Shown here: piece after piece, positions 2,501-35,039 of the stretch
How the letters are laid out: each line of letters begins with the position of its first letter
Numbering within the stretch: the first letter of the stretch is position 1
Source of the DNA: Myxococcota bacterium
Lineage (GTDB): Bacteria; Myxococcota_C; UBA6777
Direction: 5' to 3'
Length of the DNA stretch: 58,995 bases
NCBI GenBank assembly: GCA_023150835.1
Contig: JAKLKB010000025.1
Location: 1-58,995, forward strand
Notes under the pieces: generated by a model
What the model was told of the DNA's origin: nothing
The model's input: the letters and a program-made list of their open reading frames with translations, nothing else
Databases searched by the model: none
Program-made: the position numbers and the translations under genes

Positions 2501-2623
2501 CCGTGTTCGCGGCACTTCACGCGGTGTGTTGGTGGGTTTGAAAAACGTCCGATCACTCCGCCAACACGGGGGTCAAGGGGCGAGAGTCCCTTGCGGGGCG
2601 TGGGGTGGAACCCCACAAAACAC
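2501..2623 (+). repeat. Dispersed structured repeat R1, copy 1
   Basis: Begins CCGTGTTCGC and ends with ACCCCACAAAACACG. It contains the shared core GGTTTGAAAAACGTC and two predicted stem-loops: AAGGGGCGAGAGTCCCTT at 2575-2592 and GTGGGGTGGAACCCCAC at 2600-2616. Other copies are at 9286, 15775 and, reversed, 34923 and 15171. Confidence 0.8.
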
Positions 2624-2713
2624 GAATGGCTGTGTGATTCTCAACGGGAAGTGAGAGGGTGTCTAGAGCAGCGATCTCTGAACGCGATATCTCCGCGTCA
2701 TGTATGATCGCAT

Positions 2714-2776
2714 GATGTAGGGGCGGTTCGCGAACCGCCCGATGGTTGGGCAGCCACAGGGGGCTGCCCCTACATA
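2714..2776. repeat. REP-like long hairpin
   Basis: ATGTAGGGGC at the left pairs with GCCCCTACAT at the right. Inside are a second palindrome (GGCGGTTCGCGAACCGCC) and GGGCAGCCACAGGGGGCTGCCC. The GTAGGGGCAGCC core is the same as in the R2 elements, and the sequence just after it (GGCGCACACAA, GGATATCGT) resembles the R2 right end. Confidence 0.6.
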
Positions 2777-3052
2777 TCGGCGCACACAACGGGCGGATAT
2801 CGTCTGGGAGGGGGGCTAGAAAAAGGTTTATTCTGGAGAGTCGCGATTGATCTGGGTATCGCTTAATGGGGCGAGGTACCAAACCCCGCCTCCTTAGCGC
2901 GGCTCTATGGACCCCGTATAAATGGGGCGATCAGCGTTTTTCAAAGCCAACAGCTCTATCGCTTGAACACTTGCGAACACGGCTTTTTTGTCTACGGATC
3001 GCTCCCGTATGTGTACGCTTCCAACAGATATCGCTGCTTTAGACACCCTCTG

Positions 3053-3167
3053 ATACGAAATCCGCAGGGCGCGTGATCCTAAAAGCGTAGGGGCAGCAAG
3101 GCGTGTCTGCCCAAGAATAGGGCGTTTACGTACGACCCTTCGTATACACATCACTCGGATCTCGTAT
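3053..3167. mobile_element. R2 MITE-like element, copy A
   Basis: 115 bp bounded by ATACGAAATCCG at the left and CGGATCTCGTAT at the right (imperfect terminal inverted repeats). Internal GTAGGGGCAG and CTGCCC form a small hairpin. It has no coding capacity. Copy B follows after a single base. Confidence 0.65.
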
Positions 3168-3168
3168 A

Positions 3169-3282
3169 ATACGAGATCCGCCCAGAGTGTGATCGCAAAA
3201 CGTAGGGGCAGCCCCCTGTGGCTGCCCAAGAATCGGGCGTCTACGCACTATCGTACGATCACAGATCACTCGGATATCGTAT
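3169..3282. mobile_element. R2 MITE-like element, copy B, abutting the A2M stop codon
   Basis: 114 bp bounded by ATACGAGATCCG and CGGATATCGTAT, with the internal palindrome GGGGCAGCCCCCTGTGGCTG. On the minus strand the A2M gene ends in TAA at 3284-3282, overlapping the final base of the element. The reading frame therefore terminates exactly at the element boundary. Confidence 0.65.
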
Positions 3283-6200
3283 TATTTGGAGGGAGGGGAG
3301 ATGAGGAGGGTGTATCCGGGGCTACGACCGAAGAAAGCGGGTTGGTACATGAGCTCAGCGCGGGCGGGCGGGTAAGTAAAGGTGCCTTGGGTGGTGGCAC
3401 GAGCGCGGAAGTAGAGGGTATGATCGCCGCTGGGCAGTACCTCGAAGAAGAAACGGACGCGGTCATCGAGGTATTCGGTGTGCGTGGGTTTGATCGAGTT
3501 TTCTTCGGTGCTGGCGGCGTCTTTGCCGGAGGTTTGGAGGTTGGGGTTCATGACTTCGAGTCCGGCAGCGAGGGGGACTTCGATGGCGACGTGGTAGAGC
3601 CTGCGATCGGTGAGGACACGAACTTGCTCTTGAAGGATGCTGCCAAAGGGGACGGTTTTACGGGCGGAGGGGAGGATCTCGTAGGTGCGTTCATCTTCGC
3701 CCTCGGCGAAGACTTGGGTTTGGCGTTGTACGGTGAGGCCGCGATTGAGGGCGGGGAGTTGGGCTCCTTGGGTTTGGGGGATGTAAGAGATACGAGCACG
3801 AACCCAAACAGGCTTGGCAAGGGCGGTTTGGCTTTGGAGGCGGAAGAGAGGGAGGGCGTCGGTGGCCGTTTGAATGGAGGCGATATCTTTGCCTTGCCCG
3901 AAGGTGGCAGAGTTTGTCCAATTGGCGGCCAAGAGGGAAGGCGTGGATTGGAGGACGACTTGTTGTGAGGGCTGGGGTCGGTTTTGGAGGTAAGCACGCA
4001 AAGCGAGGATGGCGCGGGCATTTTCTTGAGTGCTACCCCAAGACATATTGCCTGTGCCGTCATCACGCCAGCCATAACCGAGGCGTTGAGCGACCCGCTG
4101 ATCGAGGAGGGCGTCTTTGAGGGCGTCAAGGCGGGGATCTTTGGCGTTTGCGGAGGAGAGGGCTTCGAGAAGCCCCGAGAGAGTACGGGTTTGGCTGGAG
4201 AGGTAGTAGTCGTACCAGGTTTTGCGGAAGAAGTAGATGCCCCAAAGAGCGTATTGTTGTTGGCTGTTTTGGCGGAGATCCATGCGCGCCCAGAGTTCGT
4301 TGCTGAGCTCGGTGATGCGGCTGCTGTGTCGGGTGCGGTCAAGGGTCATCGCCAAGAGGACGCGGGTGCGTGCGAACAAGTCGATGTCGACGTTGTTTCG
4401 GCTTTCGTGGAGGCGTCGCAGGTATTCGGGTTCGTGGTGTCCAGCGAGAGCGAGGGAGTAAAGGAGTTCGCTGCGGGATTCGTGTTGATAGGCGGCATCG
4501 CGCCAAGCATAATCGGAGCGAAGGGCGCGGCGAAGGGCTGCGATGGGCTTGTCGATCAATTCGTTGGGGACGCTGATTCCGGCGCGTCGGGATTCGATCA
4601 GGAAGGGCAGGATATAAGCGGTCAGGGAGACGTTTCCGTTGGAACCCGGCCAATAGCCGAACAAGCCGTCTTCTCTGAGGACGCTAGACAGATGGCGGAT
4701 GGTGGAACGCACGGCGGCTTGGGTGCGTTGTGAGTTGGTGTGGGCGAGCGCAAACTGGCGCATGGTTTGTTCGAGCAGAACGAGCGGATAAGCGCGAGAG
4801 ACGCGCTGTTCGGTGCATCCGTAGGGGAATTCGAGAAGGCTGTCGAGAGCAGCGATCGTGCGAACAAGTTCGCTGCGTGTCGCGGCAAGGATCTCGATCT
4901 TTCCGCTGCCTTGGCGGATGGCTTCGGGCCATTGTTGGAGCAGGGCAAAGGGCGTATCGAGTGACGAGATCATCTGTTCACGAACGACAAAGACGCGGCG
5001 TGTATCGGGCTGTACGGGGACAGGGAAAGAGAAAGCGTCTTGTTCTTTGTCTTTGTGGCGTTTGACGCGGAGTTGGACCGTCACTTGTTTTTGGAAGCGG
5101 GTGGGGGTGGCCATCTCAAAGAAGACAGGGACGGCTTTTTGTTTGTCGAGTGCAAAGGGACGTTTGCGTGCGCCGACGATATCGAGTCCTCGTGTGGTGA
5201 GGGTGGCGGTGGCGGGGCCGCCGTCGCCTTCGGATACACGGGCGATACCACCCGAGACAAAGCGGTCCCCGGGGCGAACGAAGCGGGGGAGGGTGCGCTG
5301 CACCATGACGGGGAGGTTCACGAGCAAGTTGCGATAAGTGAAGCCGAATCGCTGGTCTCCGCTTGAAGCGACAGCGCGGACGACAAAGGTGGTGAGATCA
5401 TCGGGGAGTTTGAAGCGGACTTTGACGCGACCCGAAGGACCGACCTGAAGGGCGGGATTGTAATAGGCGACGCTTTTGAAGTTGCGTCGGATGTTCATGC
5501 CTTCTCCGCCTTGGAGACCTTCTTGATCGCCCCCGGGGGAGTCAGGGCGGCGTGCGATGCGTCCGATCACAAGGTTGCGTGTATCGCGCAGGCGGATACG
5601 CGAGCGGCGTTTGGAGACAAAAGCGTCGATGGGATCGAGCTTACCTTCGCGTCCGAGGGACAACACAGCGCGATCGACGGCCCAGAGGGTGACTTCGCCA
5701 GAGAGGAGATCTTTGTTGGGGGAGCGCAGGGCGACTTCGACTTCGATCTCTTGGCCGGGGCGAGCGCGTTCGGGCATTTTGAGGGCGACCATCACAAGGT
5801 TTTCGCGTGGGCTGACAGGGATCTGGATGCTAGAGGCGACGCTGCGGGGTCTTCCGGGATCGATGCCACGGCTTTTGGGGTTGGCGACGCGGCCACGCAT
5901 CAACAGCACATGGACGGGGAGGTTGGGGGCGAAGCGTTTGTGGATCGGGATCTCGATCATGCCCTGTCCAGCGCGGATATCGAGCCATTGGTAGCGGGTT
6001 TTTGCGGGGTCTTCGATGATCACCATCGCACGGGCGGTTTGGAAGGGGCTGCGCACAAGGATGCGGGCTTTTCCTCCGACGTAGTAAAGTTTTTCATCGA
6101 GGGTGAGTTGAAAGACCGAAGCTTCGGGGCGTTCCCACGCGACGCTTTGTTTTCCGCGAACATAGAGATCGACGGAGACGCTTTGGAGGCGGCCCATCTT

Positions 6201-9182
6201 GTCGCGTGCCTTGACGCGGAAGATGTAGACGCCGCTGCGTTGGGTTTGAAGAGGGCAGAGGACAGGTTGTTCGGCGGTGTTGACTTTGCAGGTGGCGACG
6301 ACTTTGTCGACGATATCGGTGCGGTATTTGACGCCGCCTTGGACGAAGTCGGTTTCGACGAGCTGGGAGTGCCATTCGCGGCGCAGGAGTTCGACTTCGA
6401 GGGGGACGTTTTGGATCAGTTTTCCGTGTATACCGACGGCGATGATCTCGGCTTGAAGGGGGCCGGGGGTCAGGTGGAAGCGGTTATCGAGCTTGACGCC
6501 GACGCTAAAAGGAGGAAGGACGCGGACGCTTTGGGTGTTGGTGATCTGCCGTCCATCGGTGCCTGTGACGGTGGCTTCGATATCAAAGCGGCGTGGGCGA
6601 AGTTCGAGGCTGCGGGTGGGATCGAGTTCGAGTTCTGCGATGCCGCGTGCGTTGAGTTTGTCGGTGCGGGTGATCACGGTGCGGCTGGTTTCTTGTTGGT
6701 CGTGACCAAAGCGGAAGTTAGAAGAGAAAAAGAAACCTTCGCGTCCTTGGGGGGTGTAGGAGATATCGTGTTCGACGACGTTCCATTTGACGGGTTGTTC
6801 GACGACCATCCCACCGGCATAATAACGCGCCATCGCCGAGACTTTGAATTTTTCATCGGCGGGGACTCTATCAGGAGCGATGACTTTGACCTCGAATTGG
6901 GGGATGCGGTACTCTTCGAGGCGGAAGCTGCGGCTTGCGAGGCTGCGTTCTTGGTTGTTGACGATCTCAAAGAGTGTCGCGGTGTAAGAGCCGACGGCGG
7001 GGTTTTCGTCGTGGAACTTGAGATAAAAGCTGCTGTGCTTGGTGAGGGTGATGTTGTAATCCCAGCGGCGCTCTTTGGGGCCGAAGATGCGGAGTTTGAG
7101 AGAGGCCTTGTGTGGATCGGCTTTTCGCAGTCGTCCGTTTTGAAGGGCGCGGACGATGCCTTTGAGGTGGACGGGTTCGGAGGGGCGGTAGACAGGGCGT
7201 TCGGTAAAGAGATGGGCGCGATAGAGTTCGGGTGCAGGCTGGGATTGTTTTTCATTGAGCCACCAAAGCCAACGGCGGGACGAAGGGTACCAGTGGTTGG
7301 ATACGAAGACGGGCGGCGGGCTGTGGGGATCGAGCAAAAGTTCGTCGTTGTGGAAACGCACGCGGATGCGATGAGGAGAGCCTTCGAGTCCGCCTTTTTT
7401 CATGGAGAAATAGACGAGGCCTTGGGCGTTTGTGCGACCTGTCCACAAGGAGCTCCATGCACCTTCGGCGTTTTTTTGATCGCTGCCTTCGAGGTGGACT
7501 TCGGCCCCTGCGAGGGGAGCGGCGGTTTTGAGAGAGGTGACGGAAAAGACGACTTGTTGGCCTTCTTCGACGGCGGTCAGAGAGAGGTCTGTCACTTGGA
7601 CAGCCACATAGCTGCGTTGTTTGGAGCCATCGAGGGTGCGAAGGCCGACAAGGAAGTGATTGGAAAGATGCGGATCGGTCTTGCCGTGTTGGAGTGAGGG
7701 AAGAGAAGGCGCGAAGTAGGCGGAGAGATCGAGACCAAAGTGATGGCCTTCGCCTTCGGGATCAGCGAGCAGAGGGACGATCTGAGAAAAGCGGGGGGTG
7801 CCAAGCCGTCGGATGTAGGCTTGGAGGCGTTCGGCCATCTGCTCGCGTGCGAAGTCTGCGGCAGGTTGGGGGCCTTCACCCGCAGGGGTGGGTTTTTGAT
7901 CTTCGTCCAGCAGCAGAGCGCCTTGGGGGAAGGGCCAAAAGCGGCGATCGCCCGCAGGGATCGGATAGATGCGCATATCGACGCGAGGGATGTTGCGGCT
8001 GTGGAGAGGCATCATCTGAGGCCCAAAGCGTTCGAGAAGCCCTTGTCCGCGTTCCCATCGGAGGAAAGGAGCTTTTTTACCAAAGAAGAAGTAGACGTGT
8101 TGTTGGCCTTTGTGTTGGAGAGGCTGTCCAGCGTCGTCTTGGAGAGGGAGTCCTTGGGCAGCGAGTGTGATCTGGTAGAGGGTGCTGCGGCTGTACTGGC
8201 CTTTGAGGACAAGGCGGTTGCCTTCGACGACAGGGTCGATGTTGGGGACGGTGGGGCTGAGGCGAACCATACGGCGCAAGAGTCCGGGGTTATTTTCGCC
8301 GAGGTTGCGAGAAAAGACCAAGGTGGGGTAGCTTGCGCCGCCTCCGCAATCAAGGGCGTTTTCTTGCGGGTAGCTTGCGCGTCCCCATGCGATGTCGACG
8401 TGGTGTTTGTCGCAGAGGAGTTTTTGGAGGAAGAAAGGAGAGCGGGTGCGGAAAGATCCGCTCCAGACGGGGATTGGTGTGTCGTTTTTGGCGGAGGATA
8501 GGGCAAGTTGGAGGGCGACGGTGATCTTGGTGGATTTGGGCAGAGGTTTGTTGAGCAAGATCCAGTAGCCCCATTGGCCTTTGTCGCTGGGGGCTTCTTT
8601 GAGTTGGAATTGGTTGGTGGGGAGTACGCGCTCTTGGCCGGAACCATCGACCCCGGGGAGGGGAGAGAGGCTGATCTGGAGGGATTCTTGGAGGGCGCGC
8701 AGGGGGAGCTTTTGATCGAAGGAAAGATAGAGGCGTTGAATGGTGCCGATCTCGGTGCTGCCATCGGCGGGGATGATCTGGTTGGGTTGCGGAAGCAAGG
8801 TGCGCAAATAGACGCTACCGCTGGTTTGATGGCGTTTTCCGTCGTGTGCTGTGATCTTCGTGACGACGGAAACATAGACACGGCTGAGAGGTTGCCATGC
8901 TTCGACGGGTCGAAAGACAAGGGTGCGTGCGTCGTGCCAACGGTAAACGCCCGGATAAGGGGGGATAATCTGCAAGAAGCGCTCACCTTGCGTTTCGGAG
9001 CCACCATCGTTGGGGCCGATATCGTGGGAAAAGATCACGGAGATCGGATCGAAGGCGCGGAGGTACTGGGTGGGAAGAAGCGTTGCTTTTGTTTCGGCGT
9101 GGGCGGAGATCGACGCACCAAACCATGCTGCGGTCATCCCAAGCAGCATTAGCCAGCGTCGCAGAGATCGTAGACTTTGCAT
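3282..9182 (-). CDS. Alpha-2-macroglobulin family protein with thioester (bacterial A2M, YfhM-like)
   Basis: Exported protease-trapping protein of about 1966 residues, the size usual for large bacterial A2Ms. The ATG at 9182 is preceded by AAAGGA and opens a Sec signal peptide ending SISAHA, without a lipobox Cys, so it is probably periplasmic or secreted and not lipid-anchored. The MG2 signature is visible (FTERPVYRPSEPVHLKG). The A2M domain follows (SGRVKVRFKLPDDLTTFVVR). The thioester motif YGCTEQ places Cys near residue 1456, followed by the helical thioester domain and a C-terminal receptor-like region. Known family role: cleavage of a bait region by an attacking protease exposes the Cys-Gln thioester, which traps the protease covalently. 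No pbpC neighbour, unlike the enterobacterial locus. The stop codon lies at the edge of an R2 element. Earlier in-frame starts (9305, 9221) would spoil the signal peptide. Confidence 0.92.
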   Translation of the reverse strand: MQSLRSLRRWLMLLGMTAAWFGASISAHAETKATLLPTQYLRAFDPISVIFSHDIGPNDGGSETQGERFLQIIPPYPGVYRWHDARTLVFRPVEAWQPLSRVYVSVVTKITAHDGKRHQTSGSVYLRTLLPQPNQIIPADGSTEIGTIQRLYLSFDQKLPLRALQESLQISLSPLPGVDGSGQERVLPTNQFQLKEAPSDKGQWGYWILLNKPLPKSTKITVALQLALSSAKNDTPIPVWSGSFRTRSPFFLQKLLCDKHHVDIAWGRASYPQENALDCGGGASYPTLVFSRNLGENNPGLLRRMVRLSPTVPNIDPVVEGNRLVLKGQYSRSTLYQITLAAQGLPLQDDAGQPLQHKGQQHVYFFFGKKAPFLRWERGQGLLERFGPQMMPLHSRNIPRVDMRIYPIPAGDRRFWPFPQGALLLDEDQKPTPAGEGPQPAADFAREQMAERLQAYIRRLGTPRFSQIVPLLADPEGEGHHFGLDLSAYFAPSLPSLQHGKTDPHLSNHFLVGLRTLDGSKQRSYVAVQVTDLSLTAVEEGQQVVFSVTSLKTAAPLAGAEVHLEGSDQKNAEGAWSSLWTGRTNAQGLVYFSMKKGGLEGSPHRIRVRFHNDELLLDPHSPPPVFVSNHWYPSSRRWLWWLNEKQSQPAPELYRAHLFTERPVYRPSEPVHLKGIVRALQNGRLRKADPHKASLKLRIFGPKERRWDYNITLTKHSSFYLKFHDENPAVGSYTATLFEIVNNQERSLASRSFRLEEYRIPQFEVKVIAPDRVPADEKFKVSAMARYYAGGMVVEQPVKWNVVEHDISYTPQGREGFFFSSNFRFGHDQQETSRTVITRTDKLNARGIAELELDPTRSLELRPRRFDIEATVTGTDGRQITNTQSVRVLPPFSVGVKLDNRFHLTPGPLQAEIIAVGIHGKLIQNVPLEVELLRREWHSQLVETDFVQGGVKYRTDIVDKVVATCKVNTAEQPVLCPLQTQRSGVYIFRVKARDKMGRLQSVSVDLYVRGKQSVAWERPEASVFQLTLDEKLYYVGGKARILVRSPFQTARAMVIIEDPAKTRYQWLDIRAGQGMIEIPIHKRFAPNLPVHVLLMRGRVANPKSRGIDPGRPRSVASSIQIPVSPRENLVMVALKMPERARPGQEIEVEVALRSPNKDLLSGEVTLWAVDRAVLSLGREGKLDPIDAFVSKRRSRIRLRDTRNLVIGRIARRPDSPGGDQEGLQGGEGMNIRRNFKSVAYYNPALQVGPSGRVKVRFKLPDDLTTFVVRAVASSGDQRFGFTYRNLLVNLPVMVQRTLPRFVRPGDRFVSGGIARVSEGDGGPATATLTTRGLDIVGARKRPFALDKQKAVPVFFEMATPTRFQKQVTVQLRVKRHKDKEQDAFSFPVPVQPDTRRVFVVREQMISSLDTPFALLQQWPEAIRQGSGKIEILAATRSELVRTIAALDSLLEFPYGCTEQRVSRAYPLVLLEQTMRQFALAHTNSQRTQAAVRSTIRHLSSVLREDGLFGYWPGSNGNVSLTAYILPFLIESRRAGISVPNELIDKPIAALRRALRSDYAWRDAAYQHESRSELLYSLALAGHHEPEYLRRLHESRNNVDIDLFARTRVLLAMTLDRTRHSSRITELSNELWARMDLRQNSQQQYALWGIYFFRKTWYDYYLSSQTRTLSGLLEALSSANAKDPRLDALKDALLDQRVAQRLGYGWRDDGTGNMSWGSTQENARAILALRAYLQNRPQPSQQVVLQSTPSLLAANWTNSATFGQGKDIASIQTATDALPLFRLQSQTALAKPVWVRARISYIPQTQGAQLPALNRGLTVQRQTQVFAEGEDERTYEILPSARKTVPFGSILQEQVRVLTDRRLYHVAIEVPLAAGLEVMNPNLQTSGKDAASTEENSIKPTHTEYLDDRVRFFFEVLPSGDHTLYFRARATTQGTFTYPPARAELMYQPAFFGRSPGYTLLISPPSK

Positions 9183-9285
9183 GCTGTTGTCCTTTGGCGT
9201 GAGGGTTAAAGAAACAGGCATCTGTCGGGTTGTGTGTTGATGAAACCATCGGTCGAACCGCGTGTTTGGATAGGTTGAGAAATCC

Positions 9286-9410
9286 CCGTGTTCGGGGAGG
9301 TTCAAGCGGTGTAGGCGTTGGTTTGAAAAACGTCTGTTTGTTCCGCCGACACGGGGTCAAGGGAGCAAAGCTCCCTTGTGGGGTGTGGGGTGACACCCCA
9401 CAAAAACACG
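9286..9410 (+). repeat. Dispersed structured repeat R1, copy 2
   Basis: Lies between the A2M gene and its upstream neighbour. It contains GGTTTGAAAAACGTC, the perfect hairpin AAGGGAGCAAAGCTCCCTT at 9359-9377, and GTGGGGTGACACCCCAC. Compared with copies 1, 3 and 4, both arms of the first stem are changed while pairing is kept. Confidence 0.8.
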
Positions 9411-9446
9411 CATCGAAAACATATCCACCGCGCAAATCCCGATGGT

Positions 9447-12400
9447 TTAAGGGGTTTGCTGCGTTAATTGGCGGAGGTATTCAGCGGGAGGTGCGTTGGG
9501 GGGTGGATTGAGTCCACGCACCTCGAAGGAGGCCGATGAGGCCGCAGCACTCGGAGAAAGGCGTGCTTTGAACCAGTATTCTCCTGCGGGCAGAGACTCG
9601 TACATCATGCAAGCGCGGGCGAGCGGCTGCATGGAGCGGTTGTACAAGACGCAGCGGGTTTTTTCGTGAGCAGCGACCAAACCAAGCCCGATCTTGGAGG
9701 CTTTGGGGACACGGACAGCAAACCACAGGGCGGAGCTTTGGGAGAGCAGGTAGGGTCCGTGGCGTCCTTCGGATTGCCAGACAAGGGGTTGTGTGGAAGC
9801 CAGAAGATGAACGGAGGCGGAGGTTTGGTGGCGATGGCGCAAGCCGATCCAGTAGTGTCCTTTGGTGAGGGGGAGGGACAGCGTACAGCCGTGAGGGGCG
9901 CTGTGACTAAAGAAGGCAGGTTTGCCGATCTCTCCGATGGCGCAAACAAGGGCGTTTCCATGTGCGCGGAAGGTGAGGACGTGTGTGTTGTCGGCTTGGT
10001 AACGGAAAAAGGCTTGGGTTCCTTTAAAGGTCGCGTGTCGTCCAAGAGCGGGGAAGGCAGAGAATGGCGAAGCGGAGGTTGCGTAAGGTGCGTTCCATCG
10101 GGCCTGATGGCGTTGCTGATGTTGTACAAGTGCGATGCGTCCGGCAAGGCGGCTGGTGTGGACAACGAAGATTGCGGAGCCTTGGAGGTGATCGAGTGGT
10201 TGCTTGCAACCGTCGAGGAATCGGCCTTGGGGGAGTTGGAGTTGACAGGAGAGGCCGCGCCCAAGGGCTTGGAGGGTGGTGTGAGCGAGCGGTAAGCGAA
10301 CAGGGACACGCAAGATCGGCTGCATGGAGGAAGCGGCCCATTCGTGCGAAGTATTGGGCGAGAGGGAGATCGGTGTGTTGTGGATCTCGTGAGCGGTGAA
10401 GGCGTATTGAAGGGGAGAATCACCTGCTTGGAGAGTGAGTGTGGCAGATGAGGGAAGAGGGAGAGACCACAAGCAGCTTTGTGTGGTGCCGGTACTTTGG
10501 CAAGAAGCGATCAGTTGTGTTCCTTGGTCGGAGGGAGAGGTCAACAGCGCAATCCCCGCGCCTTGGAGCGTGAGGTGTCCTTGGAGCCCGGTCCATCGGG
10601 GCATACGGATCTGGGTGGATTGTTTGGCTGCGAGCGTGTGGGTTCCCGTCTCGCCTGAAAAGGCTGTGTCGGAGGTGGTGGGCGTGGAAAGGTCGATGGG
10701 CTGGACCAAAATAGTGCCTTGACGGATCGTATCGGCGGCGCTTTCGCGGGGACGCCAGAGGCTGAGGGAGTGTTGCCCTGCCTTGAGGTAGGCGAGCAGG
10801 TGACAGCGGAGATCATCGCGTTGTGGGGGCCAGATCCCGCGTTGTGTGCCGATCTGACAGCCCCAACGAGAGCTACCTTCGCCACGTATCTCGATCTGGT
10901 AAAAGCCCTCTTTGGCGAGGGAGATCTGGAAGCGTTTGCTTTGATCGGCTGGGACTTGGATGGCGAAGCGATGGTTGGGAAGAAACGGAAATTCGGTGAT
11001 GTGGATCTGTAGGTTGTGGAGACCTTTTGCGCTGACGCCCAACCATCCGAGATGATGGCCTGCTTGGAGGCTCAAAGCCTCCGTACAAGAGACCCATCGC
11101 AGCGTGCCGCCGAGGGGAGCGAGGCCACAATAAGCTTGGGGGTGTCCTGTGACGTTCAGTTTGTAGATGCCGTCTTGGGGGATCGCGAAGTGCACAAATG
11201 CGTGATCGCGGCGACTTACGCGAAAGGTGTGGGGCTTGCCTTCTGTGATGGCGGTAGCAGGGAGGCTTTTGAGGCGTGCGTAGGCTTTGTGTGTTTGGCT
11301 GTAGAGAGAGCGAACGCGCCAACGGTATTGTCCGGGGCCAAGCAAACGGAACAGGGAGCATCTGCCCGAAGTACCGAGGACTTCTTGGGTTTGGACGTTT
11401 TCTAGCGCGCACCCAAGGTTTCTTCGGGAGCGTGTGTCGATCTGGATGGCAGTGATCTCTTGGAGTTGAAACAGCAAGCCTTGGATGGGTTCGCCTTGGA
11501 GATCGATGGTGGTGGACTTGGCTTGTGCAAAGGGTTGATCTTTGCCGGATGGACGGGACTTGAGAGAAAGCCATGTGCCTTTTCCAAGGCCGTTGAGGGT
11601 GAGGGTGTAGAGGCCCGCAGGCAAAAGCTCGGATAGACGGCAATCCCAGCGTTCTTTGCGCATATCGTCGTTGGTGCTGAGGATCTTTCCGTTGTCAGCG
11701 CGTGCAAGGGTACACCATACGTCGGGATCGCCTTCGGTTTGGAGATCGAGGCGAGCGCGTTCGTGGAGGCGGATCTGGAGGGTGGAAGGGACTTCGCGCC
11801 AAAGCCATGTGCCGGGGGCGCTTTCGATGACGCGCAGTCCGATCTCATAGCGCTCCTCTGTTTTGCTTTCGTTGTGTTGTACGGCCAATCGGTAGGTTCC
11901 GGCAGGAGTGCGGAAGGTGGCTTTTCCGTTTTTGATCTCGGCGATGAACTGCTTTCCAGCAAACAGGCGGCCTGTAAAGTCTTTGCTGAGCGTGGCTTCG
12001 AGGGTCATCTCGACAGGGATCTTGACCTCAAAAGCGTCCGCTCCAAGGGGCGAGATCTTGGTGTGATAAAGTCCGTACAACGGGAGCGTGGCGACGGATT
12101 CGCTGCTCTCGGGGCCACGCTCCAGCTCGATGGCTTGGAGCGAGACACTTTTTTGGCCTTGGAGGACGTTGGCGCGCAGGTGCGAAAGCAGAGCGGAGGG
12201 CGTAGAGGCCGAAGGCGTTTCGCTGTCATAACGGCGATAGCGTCGGTCGGTGGGTGAAGGGGTGGCGCTTTGGAGGGTGCGGGGGGCATCGGCGTTGGGA
12301 GCGGTGTAATAGGGATCGAAGGTATCAGCTTGTACTCCGTAGGCTTCATCGGGGAGAGGCCAAAAGAAGCGTACGCGATCGTTTTGATAGATCATGACGC

Positions 12401-14753: not shown

Positions 14754-15336
14754 GCGAAAGGCTCCTGTCCTCGGCTGCTTTGGAGGCGTGTGTGGTTTGG
14801 GGCGACGAAGGGGAGAAGCATCAAACAAAGAGAGACGAATATGCAAACGTTCTGCGTCCGATGGTATCGAGCGCTTGGCAACAGACATACTTTTGCGGGA
14901 AAGCGCTCTTTGTGTAGCATGGTCCTTTCTTTGGCTCAAGTTGTTGGTGTGTGCGCGGGCTAGGGTACACCCTCTCTCGCAGGATGTGTGAGGCCGATAT
15001 CTCGGGGCTTTGCGTGAGGATGGCCACACAAGGCTAGAGTCGCACAAAAGGGTTTGCATCACGGACTTGCGCAAACACAAGTAGTTTGGCTTTGTGAAGC
15101 GGGTGTGAACGCTGATCAAATCGGCGGCGAATTATTTTAGACTTACGCGTAGGACTTACGCAGTTCGATGGTTTTGGTGGGGTGCCACCCCATGCGCGCT
15201 AGGGAGCAAGGCTCCTTTGACTTCGTATTGGCGGGGTGATCGAGGATGAGTCGGAGGGGGTGGGGTTGCGATCGAAGAGATTGCGTTTTATGGGTGGGCG
15301 GTTGAGTTGTGGTCGCGAACAAAAAGGAGAGCGGTT
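14754..15336. other. Divergent intergenic region
   Basis: Separates the minus-strand PPC-repeat gene from a plus-strand small gene. Open frames here are out-of-phase extensions without ribosome binding sites. The only recognised element is a reversed partial R1 copy at 15171-15245. Promoters for both flanking genes should lie here, but no clean -35/-10 pair was found. Confidence 0.5.
15171..15245 (-). repeat. Dispersed structured repeat R1, partial reversed copy 5
   Basis: Carries the two-hairpin half of R1 in reverse orientation: GGTGGGGTGCCACCCCAT, then AGGGAGCAAGGCTCCTTT, then CGTATTGGCGGGGTGATCG. The CCGTGTTCG end is not recognisable, so this copy is truncated or diverged. Confidence 0.6.
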
Positions 15337-15765: not shown

Positions 15766-15774
15766 GAAAACTCC

Positions 15775-15891
15775 CCGTGTTCGAGGCCATTCAAGCGAGA
15801 GAGTCGTTGGTGTGAAAAACCTGTGATCGCTTCGCCAATGCGGGGTCAAGGGGTCGAAGATCCCTTGCGGGGTGTGGGGTTGAAACCCCAC
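15775..15891 (+). repeat. Dispersed structured repeat R1, copy 3
   Basis: Sits between the hypothetical gene and ung. It has CCGTGTTCG, TGTGAAAAACCTGTGATCGC, the hairpin AAGGGGTCGAAGATCCCTT at 15848-15866 and GTGGGGTTGAAACCCCAC. The loop-closing pair of the second stem is T-A here but G-C in copy 2. Confidence 0.8.
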
Positions 15892-15931
15892 TTCAACCGA
15901 AGAGTCGGAGCACTTTGAGGCAGAGGAACAG

Positions 15932-19259: not shown

Positions 19260-19323
19260 GCAAGCAAGCGATGGTGGGTTTTCTTTTTTCGCTTCCAACA
19301 AGACATCGCGGGGTGTGGGGATC

Positions 19324-19491
19324 GTCGCTGTGTTAAAGCATCGCTGTGTTAAAGCGTCGCTGTGTTAAAGCGTCGCTGTGTTAAAGCGTCGCTGTGTTAA
19401 AGCGTCGCTGTGTTAAAGCGTCGCTGTGTTAAAGCGTCGCTGTGCTAAAGCGTCGTTGTGCTAAAGCGTCGTTGTGCTAAAGCGTCGCTGT
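19324..19491. repeat. 16-bp tandem repeat (minisatellite), about 10.5 copies
   Basis: The unit GTCGCTGTGTTAAAGC is repeated from 19324. Copies 1 and 3-7 are identical, copy 2 has one change, and later copies carry T-to-C or C-to-T changes (GTGCTAAAGCGTCGTT). The array fills the gap between the 3' ends of two convergent genes. No spacers are present, so it is not CRISPR. Length polymorphism between strains is likely. Confidence 0.95.
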
Positions 19492-19505
19492 TTTTGAGGG
19501 GTGGG

Positions 19506-25879: not shown

Positions 25880-25923
25880 AATCGGCGCTTTTGGGGAGGC
25901 GCTTTTTGGAGGGCGAAGAAGGG

Positions 25924-27027: not shown

Positions 27028-27075
27028 GATCGTTTGCAAAAGGTCGGTACGGATCGTTTGCAAAAGGTCGGTAGC
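27028..27075. repeat. 24-bp direct repeat, two copies
   Basis: GATCGTTTGCAAAAGGTCGG occurs twice in tandem with a 24-bp period (27028-27051 and 27052-27075). It lies in the gap between the kinase stop and the Cys-rich lipoprotein start. It could be a paired regulator site upstream of the lipoprotein gene or a simple duplication. Confidence 0.8.
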
Positions 27076-27129
27076 GACGCGCCTTCGCTCGAATTTGAGG
27101 GGCGATTGTAGCGATGGGGTTGGGCAGGG

Positions 27130-28890: not shown

Positions 28891-28902
28891 TCATGGGACC
28901 GC

Positions 28903-30468
28903 TTAGCGAAATCCCTCGGAAGCTTCGGTGTTTTCAGCAGCATCCAAAGCGTCGGTAGAAAACCCCATGCCTTGCTCAAGCAGCCGATCGATGGTTTCTT
29001 CGTCTGTGATGCGCTCTAAAAGGGCGTAGGTACGGTCTTGGAGGCGTGCGTCAGAAAACCGCAGCAAGCCTTCTGCAAGCGCTGTCATCGCATTCTTCGC
29101 CTCCGAGGGCAAGATATCTTCGAGTAGAGCGAGGCTTGCTTCATAGATATCCGCTTCGGTCGTTTGGTGGAGGACGTTGATGATCTCAGCGGCCAATGCT
29201 TCGGATGGGGCCAAGGCCAGTTTTTTTAAGATCCGCAAGGCCATCACCACTTCGTGCGAAAAAGAGGATCGCAAAAAAGGCTGCAACTCTAGCAACAACA
29301 AGCGATCCGCAGGGGAGCCGTCCACAAGGCACGACAAGGCTTCCAACAGATATGCGCGCATCTCGACTTTCTCGCTGCGGTGCAGCGCGTCCAAGACCGC
29401 ACGCAACTGCTCTTTGTCCCGAGCAGTCAGGACTTTTGCGAGCAAACGTCCCGCCTCCAACCGCACCCCCTCGTTTGGGTCGGTCAGCGTTTCTGCGATG
29501 ATCTGGGCAAGCGGGCCTTTGTGTGCGTGAACAAGGCCGCGCAGTGCGGCTTTGCGGATCTCTGCTTCTTCTGTGAACAACAAGCGTCGATACGTCTCAA
29601 ACAACGCGCTAGGATCGGCCTCGTGAAGCTGTTCAAGTGAACGTAACGCGACCAAACGACGCCCAAGCAGGTTTCTTGGTTCCGAGATGATCTCTTCAAG
29701 AGGGCGGCTGGCTTCCTCGCGGATCTGACGCAATAGCGGTGTCATCTCGGCGAGTGTCGAGGTTCCTGCGTCCCGTAGCTGTGGGAGCAATCCGACCAAT
29801 ACATCTGGCCATGCCCGATCTATCGGAGTGTTCAGCGGTTCCGCGATGTCTCGATGCGTCGATTGCGTCGATTGCGTCGATTGCATCGATTGCGTTTGTT
29901 GTGATCGAACTTGCAAGCGAGCCGCGGCAGCCAAGGTCTCTGCTTGTAATGGTGGAATCCCTGATGTGGTCGGTCGATTTGTCTCTTGGAGGATACGCTC
30001 GCACTCTTCGCGCACCAAGCGATCGGGATCTTGCAGAAGGTAGCGCAAGATCGGCAAAACATCGAGAGTTCCGATCTTTCCGAGACCGATCACGGCCAAT
30101 CGTCGCACGCTCGGCGAGGTATCGCGGCTAAAAAACAGCAACAGATCCAACAGATCAAAGTCGCCAGCCCACTCTTTCCCTTCTATGAGCGAGACCAAGA
30201 CATCCAACAGGATCTCTTTGTTTTCCGCCGACGCTCCCGCCCTCCCAAGCAACGAGATCAGGTGCGGTAGCGCTTCCAAAGCGTGCATCTGTTTGAGGAC
30301 CAACGCCGCGTTACGCCGCAGGCGCTCGCCCCCCTCTTCGATGGAACGCAGCAACGGGATCATCGCTGTTTCGCCGATCGCTGCGAGCGCATGGCTCGCA
30401 CCGCGCACATCCTCTTGCCACTCGCTGTCGAGATCTCTCAAGAGTCGTATGACCACATCCTCAGTCAT
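28903..30468 (-). CDS. HEAT-repeat protein
   Basis: About 521 residues, ATG at 30468 (an in-frame TTG at 30480 is less likely). It is built of paired helices typical of HEAT/PBS-lyase repeats, for example SVRRLAVIGLGKIGTLDVLP, EIRKAALRGLVHAHKG and GVRLEAGRLLAKVL. No catalytic motif, signal peptide or membrane helix; probably a cytoplasmic scaffold. Around residues 195-205 a short QST repeat is encoded by a 9-bp tandem repeat (29857-29892). It ends just before the Ser/Thr kinase frame opens, so kinase and scaffold may work together. That is inference from position only. Confidence 0.85.
   Translation of the reverse strand: MTEDVVIRLLRDLDSEWQEDVRGASHALAAIGETAMIPLLRSIEEGGERLRRNAALVLKQMHALEALPHLISLLGRAGASAENKEILLDVLVSLIEGKEWAGDFDLLDLLLFFSRDTSPSVRRLAVIGLGKIGTLDVLPILRYLLQDPDRLVREECERILQETNRPTTSGIPPLQAETLAAAARLQVRSQQTQSMQSTQSTQSTHRDIAEPLNTPIDRAWPDVLVGLLPQLRDAGTSTLAEMTPLLRQIREEASRPLEEIISEPRNLLGRRLVALRSLEQLHEADPSALFETYRRLLFTEEAEIRKAALRGLVHAHKGPLAQIIAETLTDPNEGVRLEAGRLLAKVLTARDKEQLRAVLDALHRSEKVEMRAYLLEALSCLVDGSPADRLLLLELQPFLRSSFSHEVVMALRILKKLALAPSEALAAEIINVLHQTTEADIYEASLALLEDILPSEAKNAMTALAEGLLRFSDARLQDRTYALLERITDEETIDRLLEQGMGFSTDALDAAENTEASEGFR
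29857..29892. repeat. 9-bp tandem repeat inside the HEAT gene
   Basis: CGTCGATTG three times followed by CATCGATTG. On the minus strand it encodes the low-complexity QSTQSTQST linker between two HEAT blocks. Copy-number change would alter linker length in steps of three residues without a frameshift. Confidence 0.85.
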
Positions 30469-30659
30469 CTCAGCCCCCAAAGGCTTGCTTTGGTTGAATC
30501 TCGGGTCTTGCTTCTTTGACCATCTTTAAAAAACACCGCGCCCCCTGTCAAGCGAACCTTACAAGGACGCGCTTTCAAACCGACGCCGCAATATGCACCC
30601 CAAACAGATCGCCCCAAGCCTGCCGAGAGGCCCATCCATCCAACACCGCTACACTTCTT

Positions 30660-32204
30660 TTATCGAGAGGCCCACGCGCCCAAAGCCGCAGCATACACTT
30701 CTTTTAACGGGATCCCGTGTTGCTCTGCCAGTTGTCGACAAGACGCATATTCGGGCGCAAACTGCACCACTTCGTCTCCGCGACGCCCAAGCTTGATCGA
30801 GACAAGCCCCCATGGTGTTTGTACTTCGGCAAACGATCGCTCTAATACACGCCGTTGGACGGGGAAAAAGCGAAACCCTAACGTCGAAGACTCCCGAAAC
30901 AACAGGTCTTCGACCACTCCAAGCTTTGATGCTGAACACAACAAAGATAGCTGATGCGCGGCTCGGCCTTTTTTCATCTGGATCGCACCCTGCCAAACGT
31001 CCCGTGCGCCCGCATCCCACAAACGCTCGCAAACATACGCCAGTTGCTCAGGACTCATGTCGTCTAGGTTCACTTCGACTTGCAAGAGATCCCCTTCCTC
31101 CCGATGCTCTGACAACGAGCGACCCAGCACCAATCGCAAAAGATTCGGCCTATCCGACAATTGGCGCTCGCCTGCTCCATAGCCCACGCTTTGCAACGTA
31201 AAAGACGGAAACGACACAAATTCCTCCGCCATCGCAGCCACAATCGCCGCTCCTGTGGGAGTCACCAACTCGACCGATAATCCGCTGTCATAGACAGGAA
31301 CACCGCGCAAGATCTCCAACGTCGCAGGCGCAGGCAACGGCAGGCGACCATGTTGGCATCGCACAAAACCCCGACTCATCGGCAAAGGAGAACAAGTCAC
31401 TTTCTCTATCCCCAACGCCTCAAGCCCGATCGCGACCCCCACGATATCCACAATCGAGTCGACCGCACCGACTTCATGAAACGAAACTTTTTCCACACTC
31501 ATCCCATGCACCGCAGCTTCGGCTTGGGCTAAACGCAAAAAGATCGCTTGCGCTCGTTCCTTGACACCTCTTGGCAAGCCGCTTCGCTCGATCATTGAGC
31601 GGATATCCGCGTAGCTTCGGTGGCTTCCATCCTCGATTGAGCCTTCGTGGTGGTGTCCGTGTTCATGGACGTGTTGGTGATCGTGTCCGTATTCATGGGT
31701 GTGTTGGTGGTGTCCGTGTGGATGGGCATATTGGTGATCGCGATCGTGGCCGTGTTCGTGGGTGTGTTGGTGATCGCGATCGTGGCCGTGTTCATGGGTG
31801 TGTTGGTGATCGTGGCGTCCGTGCTCATGGGTGTGTTGGTGATCGTGGTGGCCGTGCTCATGGGTGTGTTGGTGATCGTGGTGGCCGTGCTCATGGGTGT
31901 GTTGGTGATCGTGGTGATGATCGTGCGGATGGGTGTGCTTGTGTTGAGGGCCATGTTCGTGGACGTGTGTGTGTGTGTGTGTCGGTTCGAGTGGCTTCGA
32001 AGGGTGAGAGGGATGCAAGAGGACACGAAGTTTAACAGCATCAAGAACACCGACCATCCGACGTTCTGCATGGATCTCATAACCTGACAGATCCAACAGG
32101 GCCAGTCCGTCGCGTAAAACATCGAGAGAGACGCCGATATCCAACAACGCCCCCAAGGTCATATCACCGCTAACACCGCTAAAACAATCAAAGTGCAACC
32201 ACAT
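30660..32204 (-). CDS. larC: LarC, nickel-pincer cofactor (Ni-SCS) cyclometallase, with very long His-rich insert
   Basis: LarC inserts nickel into pyridinium-3,5-bisthiocarboxylate mononucleotide to finish the lactate racemase-type cofactor. The N-terminus (HFDCFSGVSGDMTLGAL) and C-terminal parts (HEVGAVDSIVDIVG, VELVTPTGAAIVA, VEVNLDDMSPEQL) match the family. It is a single uninterrupted frame, unlike the frameshifted lactobacillar gene. Residues 75-187 are about half histidine, mostly an 11- or 12-residue repeat (DHQHTHEHGHH). Short His clusters occur in other LarC, UreE and HypB proteins and are linked to nickel storage; this one is exceptionally long. The ATG overlaps the end of larB by 17 bases, so the two are translationally coupled. 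larE and larA are not in the window. Confidence 0.96.
   Translation of the reverse strand: MWLHFDCFSGVSGDMTLGALLDIGVSLDVLRDGLALLDLSGYEIHAERRMVGVLDAVKLRVLLHPSHPSKPLEPTHTHTHVHEHGPQHKHTHPHDHHHDHQHTHEHGHHDHQHTHEHGHHDHQHTHEHGRHDHQHTHEHGHDRDHQHTHEHGHDRDHQYAHPHGHHQHTHEYGHDHQHVHEHGHHHEGSIEDGSHRSYADIRSMIERSGLPRGVKERAQAIFLRLAQAEAAVHGMSVEKVSFHEVGAVDSIVDIVGVAIGLEALGIEKVTCSPLPMSRGFVRCQHGRLPLPAPATLEILRGVPVYDSGLSVELVTPTGAAIVAAMAEEFVSFPSFTLQSVGYGAGERQLSDRPNLLRLVLGRSLSEHREEGDLLQVEVNLDDMSPEQLAYVCERLWDAGARDVWQGAIQMKKGRAAHQLSLLCSASKLGVVEDLLFRESSTLGFRFFPVQRRVLERSFAEVQTPWGLVSIKLGRRGDEVVQFAPEYASCRQLAEQHGIPLKEVYAAALGAWASR
31644..31982. repeat. 33/36-bp in-frame tandem repeats encoding the LarC His-rich insert
   Basis: Near-perfect 33-bp units (for example around 31800-31920, each containing CATGGGTGTGTTGGTGATCG) encode DHQHTHEHGHH. 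Two 36-bp variants encode the DRDHQ form. The purity of adjacent units suggests recent slippage or expansion. Confidence 0.9.
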
Positions 32205-32973
32205 CCAAAGCGTCCTTTTCTTTGCGCTGGCGGTTGATCAAAGAAGCCGCGTAGGCCGCCCCGAAACCGTTGTCGATATTGACCACCGTGATCCCCGCTG
32301 CGCAGCTTGTCAGCATCGACATCAGCGCAACGAATCCCCCCGCCCCAACGCCGTATCCGATACTTGTCGGAACAGCGATCACCGGGCGATCGACCAGCCC
32401 CGCAACGACCGAAGGCAACGCGCCTTCCATCCCCGCAACCACGATCAAGACTTCCGCAAGGCGGATGCGTTCGATCTCGCCCAACAGTCGGTGCAGTCCT
32501 GCCACTCCGATATCCGCCACGATCGACGTGCGGTTGCCCATCAATCGCAACGTTACTTCGGCCTCTCGTGCGATCGGAAGATCCGAAGTCCCCGCTGCCA
32601 AGATCAACACTTCACCACGACCCCGATCCGCGATGGGTTCGGTGGCGCGGTACAAACAGCGAGACGGTCCATCGTACACAGCATCCGAAACCACCGCACG
32701 CACGGCTGCTGCTTGGTTCGCATCAGCCCGAGTCGCCAAGACGACCGTGTGATGGGCGGCAAGATGTGCAAAGATCGCCGCTACTTGTTCAGGCGTCTTC
32801 CCCTGTGCAAAGATAACCTCCGGAAATCCCCGACGTAGCGCTCGATGATGATCGACTCGGCTTTCTTCCAACGATGCGTAGGGCAGGATCGCCAAGCGCT
32901 TTAACGCCTCTTCGACCGACAAGGCATCACCCTTGACTTGCTCCAACAACGCCCGTATCGCTTGTTCTTCCAC
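32188..32973 (-). CDS. larB: LarB, pyridinium-3,5-biscarboxylic acid mononucleotide synthase
   Basis: First enzyme of nickel-pincer cofactor synthesis: carboxylates and hydrolyses nicotinic acid adenine dinucleotide. 261 residues, the family's normal size. The N-terminal part contains RRGFPEVIFAQGKTPEQ. The C-terminal half is the PurE/AIR-carboxylase-like domain (VLILAAGTSDLPIAREAEVT, VVAGMEGALPSVVAGL, VPTSIGYGVG, NIDNGFGAAYAA). It is followed by overlapping larC and divergent from the metzincin gene with a gap of about 180 bases. The HypE/LarE-type sulphur insertase and the enzyme that uses the cofactor must be elsewhere. Confidence 0.96.
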   Translation of the reverse strand: MEEQAIRALLEQVKGDALSVEEALKRLAILPYASLEESRVDHHRALRRGFPEVIFAQGKTPEQVAAIFAHLAAHHTVVLATRADANQAAAVRAVVSDAVYDGPSRCLYRATEPIADRGRGEVLILAAGTSDLPIAREAEVTLRLMGNRTSIVADIGVAGLHRLLGEIERIRLAEVLIVVAGMEGALPSVVAGLVDRPVIAVPTSIGYGVGAGGFVALMSMLTSCAAGITVVNIDNGFGAAYAASLINRQRKEKDALDVVAL

Positions 32974-33153
32974 GCTTCATGCTCCTTTGCCCTTGGATTC
33001 TATCCCCAAAAGACTTGCCTTCTCTTGGAGAATTGCCACCCTCATGTCAAGGATGTTTGTGGTCTTGCGATACCCTTTTTTATCAACGCCACAAGCTGCT
33101 CTGCCCCGTTCAACACAACGCACTCCGCCTCTGCGAATAGAAGGACGTTGCTC

Positions 33154-33981
33154 ATGGCTCTCTCTCTTCGTTTCTTGGCTTTTGTTTCGTTTTGCATCGC
33201 TCTCTGCGCTTTCCCTATTCTTCCCCAAGCCTTCGTTCGCACCAAAGCCACCACCCCCGACGGCAAAGAAGTGGCCCTCTTTTGGAACGAATTCCCCATC
33301 AAATACTTCATCAACAAAGCCGGTAGCCCTGACATATCCGACCTCGAAGGGACTTACGATGCGATCAAAGCCAGCTTCCAAGCGTGGATGAATCCCGGGT
33401 GTGGCTGCTTTCAAGCCGAGTTTGTCGGATTGACCGACCTCGCGGAAACTGGATACAACCAAGACAAACCCGCCGAAGATCAAAATGTCATCTTCTTTCG
33501 ACAAGGCGATTGGACCCACAACCGCCAAGCCGTCGCCGTCACCAGCGTCGTCTACAGCCGCAGCACAGGACAGATCTTCGGCTTTGATATCGAGATCAAC
33601 GATCGCGACTATCGCTTCAGCCTCGATGGCAGCAGCGTTCCCGGTGTTCCCCGACCCATCGCTACCATCGACCTCCAAAACACCCTCACGCACGAAGCCG
33701 GACATGCTCTTGGCCTCGATCACAGCGAAAACAAATCTGCGACCATGTACGCTTCCGCTCCCCCCGGCGAAACCTCCAAACGCCAACTTCATTCCGACGA
33801 TATCGAGGGCCTTTGTTCTATCTACCGCAAAGAAACCGCAAGCCAGACCTGCCAGATCTCTCGCTCAGAACAATTCCTCAAAGGCACAGGATGCGCCTGT
33901 CAGTCTTCTTCACCCTCCAATCACCCCTTCCTTCCGCTATTTGCGCTCTTTGTCTTGCTCTTTTGGCGGCGACGCGCTTAG
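33154..33981 (+). CDS. Matrixin-like metzincin protease with MYXO-CTERM-like tail
   Basis: About 275 residues. ATG at 33154 follows AGAAGGA and begins a signal peptide (FLAFVSFCIALCAFPILPQA). The zinc-binding signature HEAGHALGLDH is complete and is followed by a plausible Met-turn (SATMY), placing it in the M10/M57-like metzincins. The C-terminus has GTGCACQ, a Ser/Pro linker, a hydrophobic stretch (FLPLFALFVLLF) and RRRA, the Cys-hydrophobic-Arg pattern of MYXO-CTERM sorting tails. It is therefore probably surface-attached. There is no obvious cysteine-switch propeptide. The longer open frame back to 32938 overlaps larB antisense and is not used. Confidence 0.9.
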   Translation: MALSLRFLAFVSFCIALCAFPILPQAFVRTKATTPDGKEVALFWNEFPIKYFINKAGSPDISDLEGTYDAIKASFQAWMNPGCGCFQAEFVGLTDLAETGYNQDKPAEDQNVIFFRQGDWTHNRQAVAVTSVVYSRSTGQIFGFDIEINDRDYRFSLDGSSVPGVPRPIATIDLQNTLTHEAGHALGLDHSENKSATMYASAPPGETSKRQLHSDDIEGLCSIYRKETASQTCQISRSEQFLKGTGCACQSSSPSNHPFLPLFALFVLLFWRRRA

Positions 33982-34418
33982 GCCATCCATATGCTTTCCT
34001 ACACCCTCCCCATGCCTTCTGTAATGCGAGTAATCACTTTATTGAATCTTTGTTCTAAAATATAACTTCTTGAGAGTAGAAACATTTTTCTGTGATCAAA
34101 ATTTGAGATCCATCTAAAACGCAGCCAAAATGCAAGCAACGTTTGCTTGACTCAAGTCGATGATCTGTGCGACCTTCGAGGCCGCTCAAAAAGAGCGAAG
34201 AATCAAGTTGGCAAAGAAAGTGCAAGCACACACGCCGCACACCAACTCCCCTCTTTCTTGCTGTGCATGTCTTGATGGAACGCTTCTTTTTCCCGCGAAC
34301 CCAAAAGACCCCAAACACCACTTGACCCCGACATCATCGCCAAGGCAAGGAGTCCTAAGACGCGATGTCGAGGCTCCCACACTCAAGGTGTGCGGATTAC
34401 CCGTCAAGGAGACACGAC
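33982..34418. other. Intergenic region with AT-rich core
   Basis: Between the metzincin and PilZ genes. 34040-34130 is distinctly AT-rich for this window (AAAATATAACTTCTTGAGAG). It is followed by a near-palindrome GCAAGCAACGTTTGCTTG at 34132-34150 that could be an operator. No gene supported. Confidence 0.45.
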
Positions 34419-34832
34419 ATGACCGATCAATCCACAGAGCGCCGCAACTACGTACGTCTTCCCCTCAAAGACATGATGGTTCGTTACGGCCACGAAGGTC
34501 AGGTCTACTTTGGCAGTTGCCAAAACCTCAGCCCCGGCGGCCTTTTCATCGCAACCAAAACCCCTGCTCCCTACGGCTCCGAAGTGACCCTCAAGTTCAC
34601 ACTCCCGGGCCATGAAAATACACTCCAAGCCAAAGGGCTTGTTGTTCGCGTGAATCGCGACACACGCAACCGTTCCACCCCAAACAACGCCCCCGGTATG
34701 CACGTGCGCTTCACCAAGATGACAGCCACCACCAAAGAAGAACTCAAGCGCTTTCTCGTCCCCCGCTTGCGCGAACTTGTGATCCGACGACTCGCCGAAC
34801 GCCAACGCGCCACCAAAAAAGAACAACCCTGA
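34419..34832 (+). CDS. PilZ-domain c-di-GMP-binding protein
   Basis: About 137 residues, single PilZ domain. ATG at 34419 has AAGGAG upstream. The c-di-GMP motif RRNYVRLP (RxxxR type) and the later NLSPGGLFI (D/NxSxxG type) are present, so binding is likely. The size and C-terminal RELVIRRLAE helix fit the stand-alone PilZ proteins common in myxobacteria, where they act in motility and surface signalling. No neighbouring diguanylate cyclase. Followed by a repeat-rich gap with R1 and R2 copies. Confidence 0.9.
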   Translation: MTDQSTERRNYVRLPLKDMMVRYGHEGQVYFGSCQNLSPGGLFIATKTPAPYGSEVTLKFTLPGHENTLQAKGLVVRVNRDTRNRSTPNNAPGMHVRFTKMTATTKEELKRFLVPRLRELVIRRLAERQRATKKEQP

Positions 34833-34922
34833 TCTCCTTCCCCGCTCTACCTCCCTCTCCCTCCTTCCTCTTCTCTCTTTTTCTTTTTGATTCTCAACAA
34901 ACTTATCGCATTTGGGCTTGTT

Positions 34923-35039
34923 TTGTGGGGTTCCACCCCACGCCCCGCAAGAGGGCACTGCCCTCTTGGCTCCGTGTTGGGCGGGTCGTTCAGACGTTTT
35001 TACACAAACGGCTCTGCCGCTTGAAGCGGCGCGAACACG
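34923..35039 (-). repeat. Dispersed structured repeat R1, copy 4 (reversed)
   Basis: Read on the minus strand it matches the R1 order: CCGTGTTCG-like end, AAAAACGTC core, then hairpins. On the plus strand the hairpins are GTGGGGTTCCACCCCAC at 34925-34941 and AAGAGGGCACTGCCCTCTT at 34949-34967. The second stem uses different bases from copies 1-3 but pairs perfectly. Confidence 0.8.

Follow-up and report, generated by a model that had tools for sequence, protein, structure and literature searches.

The locus analysed here raises the question of what a dispersed, folded intergenic repeat (in the following called R1) is, and at which level its fold is kept. R1 lies in a stretch of 58,995 nt from a Myxococcota bacterium (contig JAKLKB010000025.1), here called the window. 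An earlier note, made from the letters of this DNA, had listed five places with a shared end, a shared core and two adjacent hairpins, and had read compensatory changes as selection on a folded form, either RNA or cruciform. Our analysis points to R1 being a mobile DNA element, small, non-autonomous and confined to a single genus, with a triplex-like fold selected in propagating lineages and inserted copies decaying neutrally (probability roughly 0.6).

All five places exist. With a covariance model of R1, four were identified as full-length copies scoring 106-146 bits and one as truncated; a decayed sixth copy and a fragment were added. The copies and associated elements in the window are:

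9283..9407, plus strand: full-length copy of 125 nt, used as reference, between two large minus-strand genes (BLAST and covariance model)
2498..2622, plus strand: full-length copy, C97 with a loop-centre G (covariance model)
15772..15897, plus strand: full-length copy with a 4-nt hairpin-B loop, breaking the 97:111 rule described below (covariance model)
34919..35043, minus strand: full-length copy, C97 with a loop-centre G (covariance model)
15173..15242, minus strand: truncated copy, 3′ half only, model positions 53-123 (covariance model)
15150..15166, plus strand: terminal inverted repeat (TIR) TAGGACTTACGCAGTTC, lying past the truncated copy on its 3′ side
2865..2983, minus strand: decayed sixth copy, absent from the congener (covariance model)
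35069..35107, minus strand: R1 5′-end fragment adjoining the copy at 34919-35043

The stem variants quoted earlier are correct. The end CCGTGTTCG, described as common to all five copies, is missing from the minus-strand copy at 15171, which consists of the 3′ half only, and the proposed core TTTGAAAAACGTC has no more than two exact occurrences among the copies, at 2537 and 9322. The sole congener, a Myxococcota-labelled MAG (G001), shares the reference copy (G001:C230:8101-8225) and possesses an intact R1 (G001:C230:2202-2323) where the copy in the window is truncated.

The R1 unit is about 125 nt long, and its structured strand reads 5′-CCCCGTG...CACAAAA-3′. A 5′ domain consists of helix P1 (CCCCGTRTT/ARYACGGGG) and, nested inside it, helix P2 (GCGR/YCGC). 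Then follow hairpin A (CAAGGGRGC-nnn-GCTCCCTTG), nt 97, a GGGG tract, hairpin B (GTGGGGY-nRn-RCCCCAC) and AAAA. The two adjacent hairpins noted before are thus both present, but they undercount the structure, which includes the 5′ domain as well. In the reference copy, all on the plus strand, the parts are:

9284..9292, plus strand: 5′ strand of P1, pairing with 9348-9356
9306..9309, plus strand: 5′ strand of P2, GCGG, pairing with 9343-9346 and containing the covarying pair 27-61
9343..9356, plus strand: 3′ strands of P2 and P1, with a terminal GGGG
9358..9378, plus strand: hairpin A, CAAGGGAGC-AAA-GCTCCCTTG
9379..9379, plus strand: Y97 (T here), covarying with the loop centre at 9393
9380..9383, plus strand: GGGG tract, proposed third strand
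9385..9401, plus strand: hairpin B, GTGGGGT-GAC-ACCCCAC, with the loop-centre A at 9393

There are four G tracts on one strand of R1; parsed copies are of the form 4-3-4-4 in 134 of 137 cases and 5-3-5-5 in one. A weak candidate helix P3 (GTT/AAC) was rejected, with low pairing and covariation that was not significant. At five loci (L002, L007, L015, L023, L025), tandem duplications of 15-40 nt start from the CACAAAA end, as if replication slips at the hairpin.

Five copies were far too few. The covariance model, searched genome-wide and in relatives as had been proposed, revealed a large family: the 7.56-Mb genome of the window (G000) contains at least 330 R1 copies and probably 600-750, a range scaled from the sampled density and biased upwards, as contigs were chosen for having matches. 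From 647 first-look candidates 43 scored BLAST matches were obtained genome-wide, the covariance model gave at least 150 matches in G000 and 106 copies in 1.217 Mb, and the hairpin-A frame occurs 330 times in this genome; these high counts, together with zero matches to the reversed control pattern, show that R1 is not a product of chance. R1 density in the congener is similar. Among the other three genomes of the family, two yielded no covariance-model match, the third yielded three weak ones, and none contained the hairpin-A frame; the phylum-level set comprised only five genomes of a very sparsely sampled lineage, to which R1 adds a high-copy mobile element. Across the domain, the hairpin-A frame was found in 0 of 381 sampled genomes, and the covariance model gave eight weak matches in 36 genomes, all in a single one (G027). 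Viral contigs contained no hairpin-A match, and viral spread of hairpin A was rejected on this basis. The earlier statement that no named family corresponds to R1 held up: no Rfam family was detected in the window, R1 stayed below the gathering thresholds of the covariance models (best E 0.57), and the openly accessible literature, including a search by sequence words, yielded no description of R1 or of a matching repeat family.

About half of the R1 copies are embedded in a 166-nt MITE-like unit bounded by inverted repeats TAGGASTTACGCAGTTG at a fixed distance. Among the CGA/CGG-typed copies, 41 carry both terminal repeats, 50 carry one and the rest none. Target duplications of 5-6 bp (TCAACA, TGAAAA, CGTTT) were seen only for copies with TIRs, and clean empty sites in the congener document insertion of the whole unit with the duplications TCAACA and TGAAAA. 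In about 200 kb of aligned synteny between both species, 14 copies are shared, ten are restricted to G000 and six to G001; with 16 of 30 comparable sites species-specific, R1 is therefore mobile. The 166-nt unit with its repeats and duplications would be moved in trans by a putative transposase. The hairpins are not simply the inverted ends of a transposon, an alternative raised at the outset, because the TIRs are separate sequences outside R1.

Similar to bacterial MITEs, R1 is short and non-coding, has TIRs and 5-6 bp duplications, occurs in hundreds of intergenic copies and has a sister MITE with the same TIR. It differs in having an internal fold, separate from the TIRs, that is conserved and covaries, in the TIR-less half of the copies and in that no autonomous partner was found in 1.5 Mb. 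The cores of TIR-less copies are equally conserved (80% vs 81.5% consensus frequency); decay of the terminal repeats therefore cannot be the whole story, and TIR-driven transposition alone is insufficient. In this class no clean insertion junctions were seen. No autonomous partner with the TIRs of R1 appeared in 1.5 Mb scanned, and TIR pairs 1.2-2.1 kb apart (G000 C102:3512-5571, C111:29691-31705, C183:3022-4235) enclose no PF01609 match; PF01609 matches were not located between TIR pairs, and an IS4-type partner was rejected.

The sister MITE (112 nt, core GTAGGGGCGGTTCGCGAACCGCCC) is found at G000_C70:30546, G000_C201:65231, G001_C136:4167 and elsewhere. At two spots (G000_C87:17734/G001_C55:4352 and G000_C199:10461/G001_C81:6631) both species have neighbouring, equally oriented R1 insertions within one intergenic site, but the flanks differ or the points of insertion are offset by a few bases, which suggests hot spots where R1 has inserted repeatedly or been replaced. 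The copies at G000_C70:59060, G000_C235:6449, G000_C199:195 and G001_C422:125 share extended modules in their 3′ flanks (CGCGCCTTGTTAAGG.GGAAAC..., GGCGTTAGGTGAAGCGG...), and composite repeats thus exist.

To analyse covariation within the genus, we aligned 223 R1 copies and evaluated 7381 column pairs against a null model in which the tree and each column's count of changes are preserved. Three pairs survived, with E values of about 0.03-0.07 that are only approximate because they derive from 30 simulated alignments: 109-113, the closing pair of hairpin B (C:G 112, T:A 101), 97-111 (T:A 101, C:G 93) and 27-61 in P2 (A:T 121, G:C 83). The covariation suspected before is thus real in this alignment, and so is the closing-pair change of the second stem. 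For the first stem, hairpin A, the claimed compensatory change did not reach significance under the tree-preserving null (83-89, E about 5); a large part of the variation in this stem consists of founder states. The pair 97-111 was unexpected and is non-nested, joining the base after hairpin A to the centre of the hairpin-B loop. Its link is present in every subfamily stratum, and the tree shows about 36 changes of its state. Nucleotide 109, which lies between both positions, is independent of 97 (CC 67, TT 52, CT 51, TC 50), which argues against simple linkage. The exceptions are C.A in eight cases and T.G in one.

These data bear on the reading of R1 as an ordinary MITE that spread from few source copies, with subfamily history appearing as covariation. 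The TIRs, the target duplications and the 112-nt sister MITE agree with it, as does the tracking of subfamilies by P2 types. We nevertheless regard it as quite unlikely, given the three pairs that survive a tree-preserving null, the recurrent 97/111 changes, linked in every stratum while nt 109 is not, and the recurrence of the 97:111 rule in other phyla.

Outside the genus, the hairpin A+B module was found without the 5′ domain of R1, in multiple copies, in MAGs of Bacillota and Chloroflexota (Anaerolineae, two Defluviitaleaceae and Ruminococcus). The scan pattern left the tested positions free. Removal of shifted repeats and most duplicates left 49 entries, of which 46 were parsed; two of the three others break the frame. 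Position 97 is complementary to the loop centre in all 46 (C:G 41, T:A 5), and positions 98:108:114 are A:A:T in 20, G:G:C in 20 and G:G:T in four, with two exceptions. Because all T97 cases belong to a single genome and the A:A:T state occurs in two phyla, these counts represent few independent events outside the genus. The lengths of the third-strand and stem tracts match in 44 of 46 entries, with a turn of 3-4 nt. Within-genome permutation gave p<=5e-5, also with the 35 unique entries. Within the genus, positions 98 and 108 hardly vary and their association was not significant (p=0.25); the triad rule thus rests on the other phyla. A corresponding third strand on hairpin A was rejected (71:82, p=0.19). 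In Ruminococcus, the hairpin units are repeated in tandem. In Defluviitaleaceae and Anaerolineae, a further hairpin, rich in either A/T or G/C, usually stands ahead of the GGGGTCAAGGGG module (L317, L321, L325 and L329, upstream of GGGG; L320, L324, L328 and L332), and these elements are thus multi-hairpin mosaics as well.

Whether DNA triplexes form and have a role in living cells is a long-standing question, with evidence mainly from in vitro work and from abundance. The R1 module contains a mirror repeat R-GGG...GGG-R whose third strand would be antiparallel to the purine strand, the G.G-C / A.A-T pattern of purine-motif triplexes. After folding of the structured strand into the 5′ domain, hairpin A and hairpin B, the GGGG before hairpin B would lie antiparallel on the GGGG/CCCC stem as a purine-motif intrastrand triplex. 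This geometry would bring nt 97 to the loop, where a Watson-Crick pair with the loop centre 111 could cap the triplex. The predicted R1 triplex would have only four triads and would have to open the conserved pairs 103-119 and 104-118 at the foot of the stem. By sequence pattern and triad covariation, a single strand of the module holds the three blocks for G.G-C / A.A-T triads that characterise purine-motif intrastrand triplex (PIT) elements, though with only 4-5 triads compared to the six or more demanded by ITxF. Purine-motif triplexes form in DNA, not in RNA (PMC4666352). Part of the fold is better read as a putative DNA triplex than as the RNA or cruciform first suggested.

The closest system in kind is the E. 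coli BoxC/PIT/TM_ECO element of enterobacteria (Holder et al. 2015, PMC4666352), which forms triplexes in vitro, occupies unstable loci and has no function found. Both are high-copy intergenic repeats with a G/C-rich purine-motif intrastrand triplex pattern and 3-nt loops, unstable between related strains, and the TTA and CCG loop types of BoxC/TM_ECO recall the T:A / C:G alternation of R1. TM_ECO, however, has C-G-G triads, nine in number, a 3′ third strand and no transposon association found, whereas the R1 module has 4-5 G-G-C triads, a 5′ third strand, a linker-to-loop pair and the companion hairpin A, and lies partly in a MITE. The BoxC/TM_ECO pattern CCCTCNCCC-N3-6-GGGNGAGGG-N3-GGGNGAGGG had no match in 2.6 Mb. 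When the E. coli relative was footprinted in vivo, no stable triplex was seen (PMC4666352).

Tentatively, and at somewhat less than even odds, hairpin B may represent a cross-phylum class of capped purine-motif DNA triplexes with a 5′ third strand, in which selection keeps triads and cap, apparently for propagation. If true, the covariation would be evolutionary evidence for a functional DNA triplex; the same hairpin module in unrelated phyla offers an evolutionary handle on whether such structures matter in cells. Loop, linker and stem bases changing together across phyla also specify exact mutants, of which matched ones should work and mixed ones fail.

The four G tracts on one strand could alternatively form a G-quadruplex, or a protein could read nt 97 and 111 together, its contacts coupling the two bases. 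Of all alternatives we consider this the least probable: 108:114 and 109:113 covary as Watson-Crick pairs that a quadruplex would break, and 97:111 is strictly complementary, with two states, across phyla.

As an RNA element, R1 would be transcribed, and its hairpins, together with a pseudoknot of a single pair and triples between linker and stem, would work as RNA, for example by stabilising or terminating the mRNA of the neighbouring gene. Folding z-scores of -1.9 to -6.1 and the closeness of copies to stop codons fit this, and founder states of the G.T/G.U type (8-68, 10-66, 82-90) make the strand directional. Near stop codons, though, the reverse complement is read and not the structured strand; the 97:111 exceptions lie in the wrong direction for RNA wobble, Rfam gave no match, orthologous copies are not conserved beyond their flanks, and the antiparallel G.G-C / A.A-T arrangement is a DNA triplex pattern. 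The test for an intrinsic terminator failed, as there is no U tract: the letters after hairpin B are AAAA on the structured strand and ACCCCAC on the opposite one. An RNA role is therefore unlikely.

R1 also resembles REP, BIME and REPIN sequences in its high-copy intergenic palindromic units and in the tandem hairpin units of Ruminococcus, without a GTAG/CGTC tag, alternating inverted units or a convincing RAYT in G000 and G001. A REP-like element would be moved as ssDNA by a Y1 (RAYT/IS200-type) transposase reading a tetranucleotide plus hairpin. The GGGG-plus-hairpin units, the sharp ends of TIR-less copies and the direction of the structured strand are compatible with this. It is very unlikely, however, as Y1_Tnp (PF01797) has only two marginal matches (23-24 bits) in G000 and none in G001, and sister genera with RAYTs have no R1. 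RU-1 and RU-2 (ERIC-type) are likewise intergenic mobile repeats, 100-170 nt in length (PMC2759123).

Returning to R1 as a mobile DNA element with a selected fold, we compared placement and decay of the copies. By our own codon-based gene predictions, with 79% coding sequence, only 15 of 223 copies overlap called genes. The median distance from the antisense stop codon to the R1 3′ end is 44 nt compared to 102 nt under random placement, and orientation relative to neighbours is biased (79:46, p=0.004). Copies that have terminal repeats and copies that lack them show the same bias, which may reflect target preference or tolerance. New copies would be retained between genes, with a preference for sites about 44 nt downstream of the stop codon of a gene antisense to R1.

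Identity between orthologous copies is 85.7% in the cores and 87.8% in the flanks. The claim that the folded form is selected stands in that the fold appears constrained in propagating lineages; selection at each site was rejected, core identity not exceeding that of the flanks. On the structured strand the founder polymorphisms (8-68, 10-66, 82-90) are of the G.T kind, while late decay in most stems, among them hairpins A and B and P2, yields A.C and G.T mismatches in equal numbers. Orthologous copies lose identity much as their flanks do; selection on the fold therefore appears to act during spread, with neutrality afterwards, suggesting selection at the level of propagation while single copies rot. 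The fold might be met, for example, as single-stranded DNA by a transposase or a replication enzyme, and inserted copies would then decay neutrally.

Further repeats and elements accompany R1. A second MITE-like family of about 115 nt (ends ATACGAAATCCGC / CGGATATCGTAT, core GTAGGGGCAGCCCCCTGTGGCTGCCC) is located in the window at 3053-3285, 35108-35244, 42832-42976 and 2660-2803 and is likewise polymorphic between the two species. A congener-only insertion of about 1.75 kb (G001:C256, about 9150-10900) looks like an IS607/TnpB-type element, with a TnpB-like gene after a small resolvase-like one. At 51563-57290, the window encodes large proteins with many NGxDDDCNG/CDGxDNDCDG repeats, similar to the MopE-type metal-binding repeats of Myxococcota. 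A 16-nt tandem repeat (CGTCGCTGTGTTAAAG) lies between genes at 19323-19498, and 33-nt repeats occupy 31620-31946, where the minus strand codes for a histidine-rich stretch.
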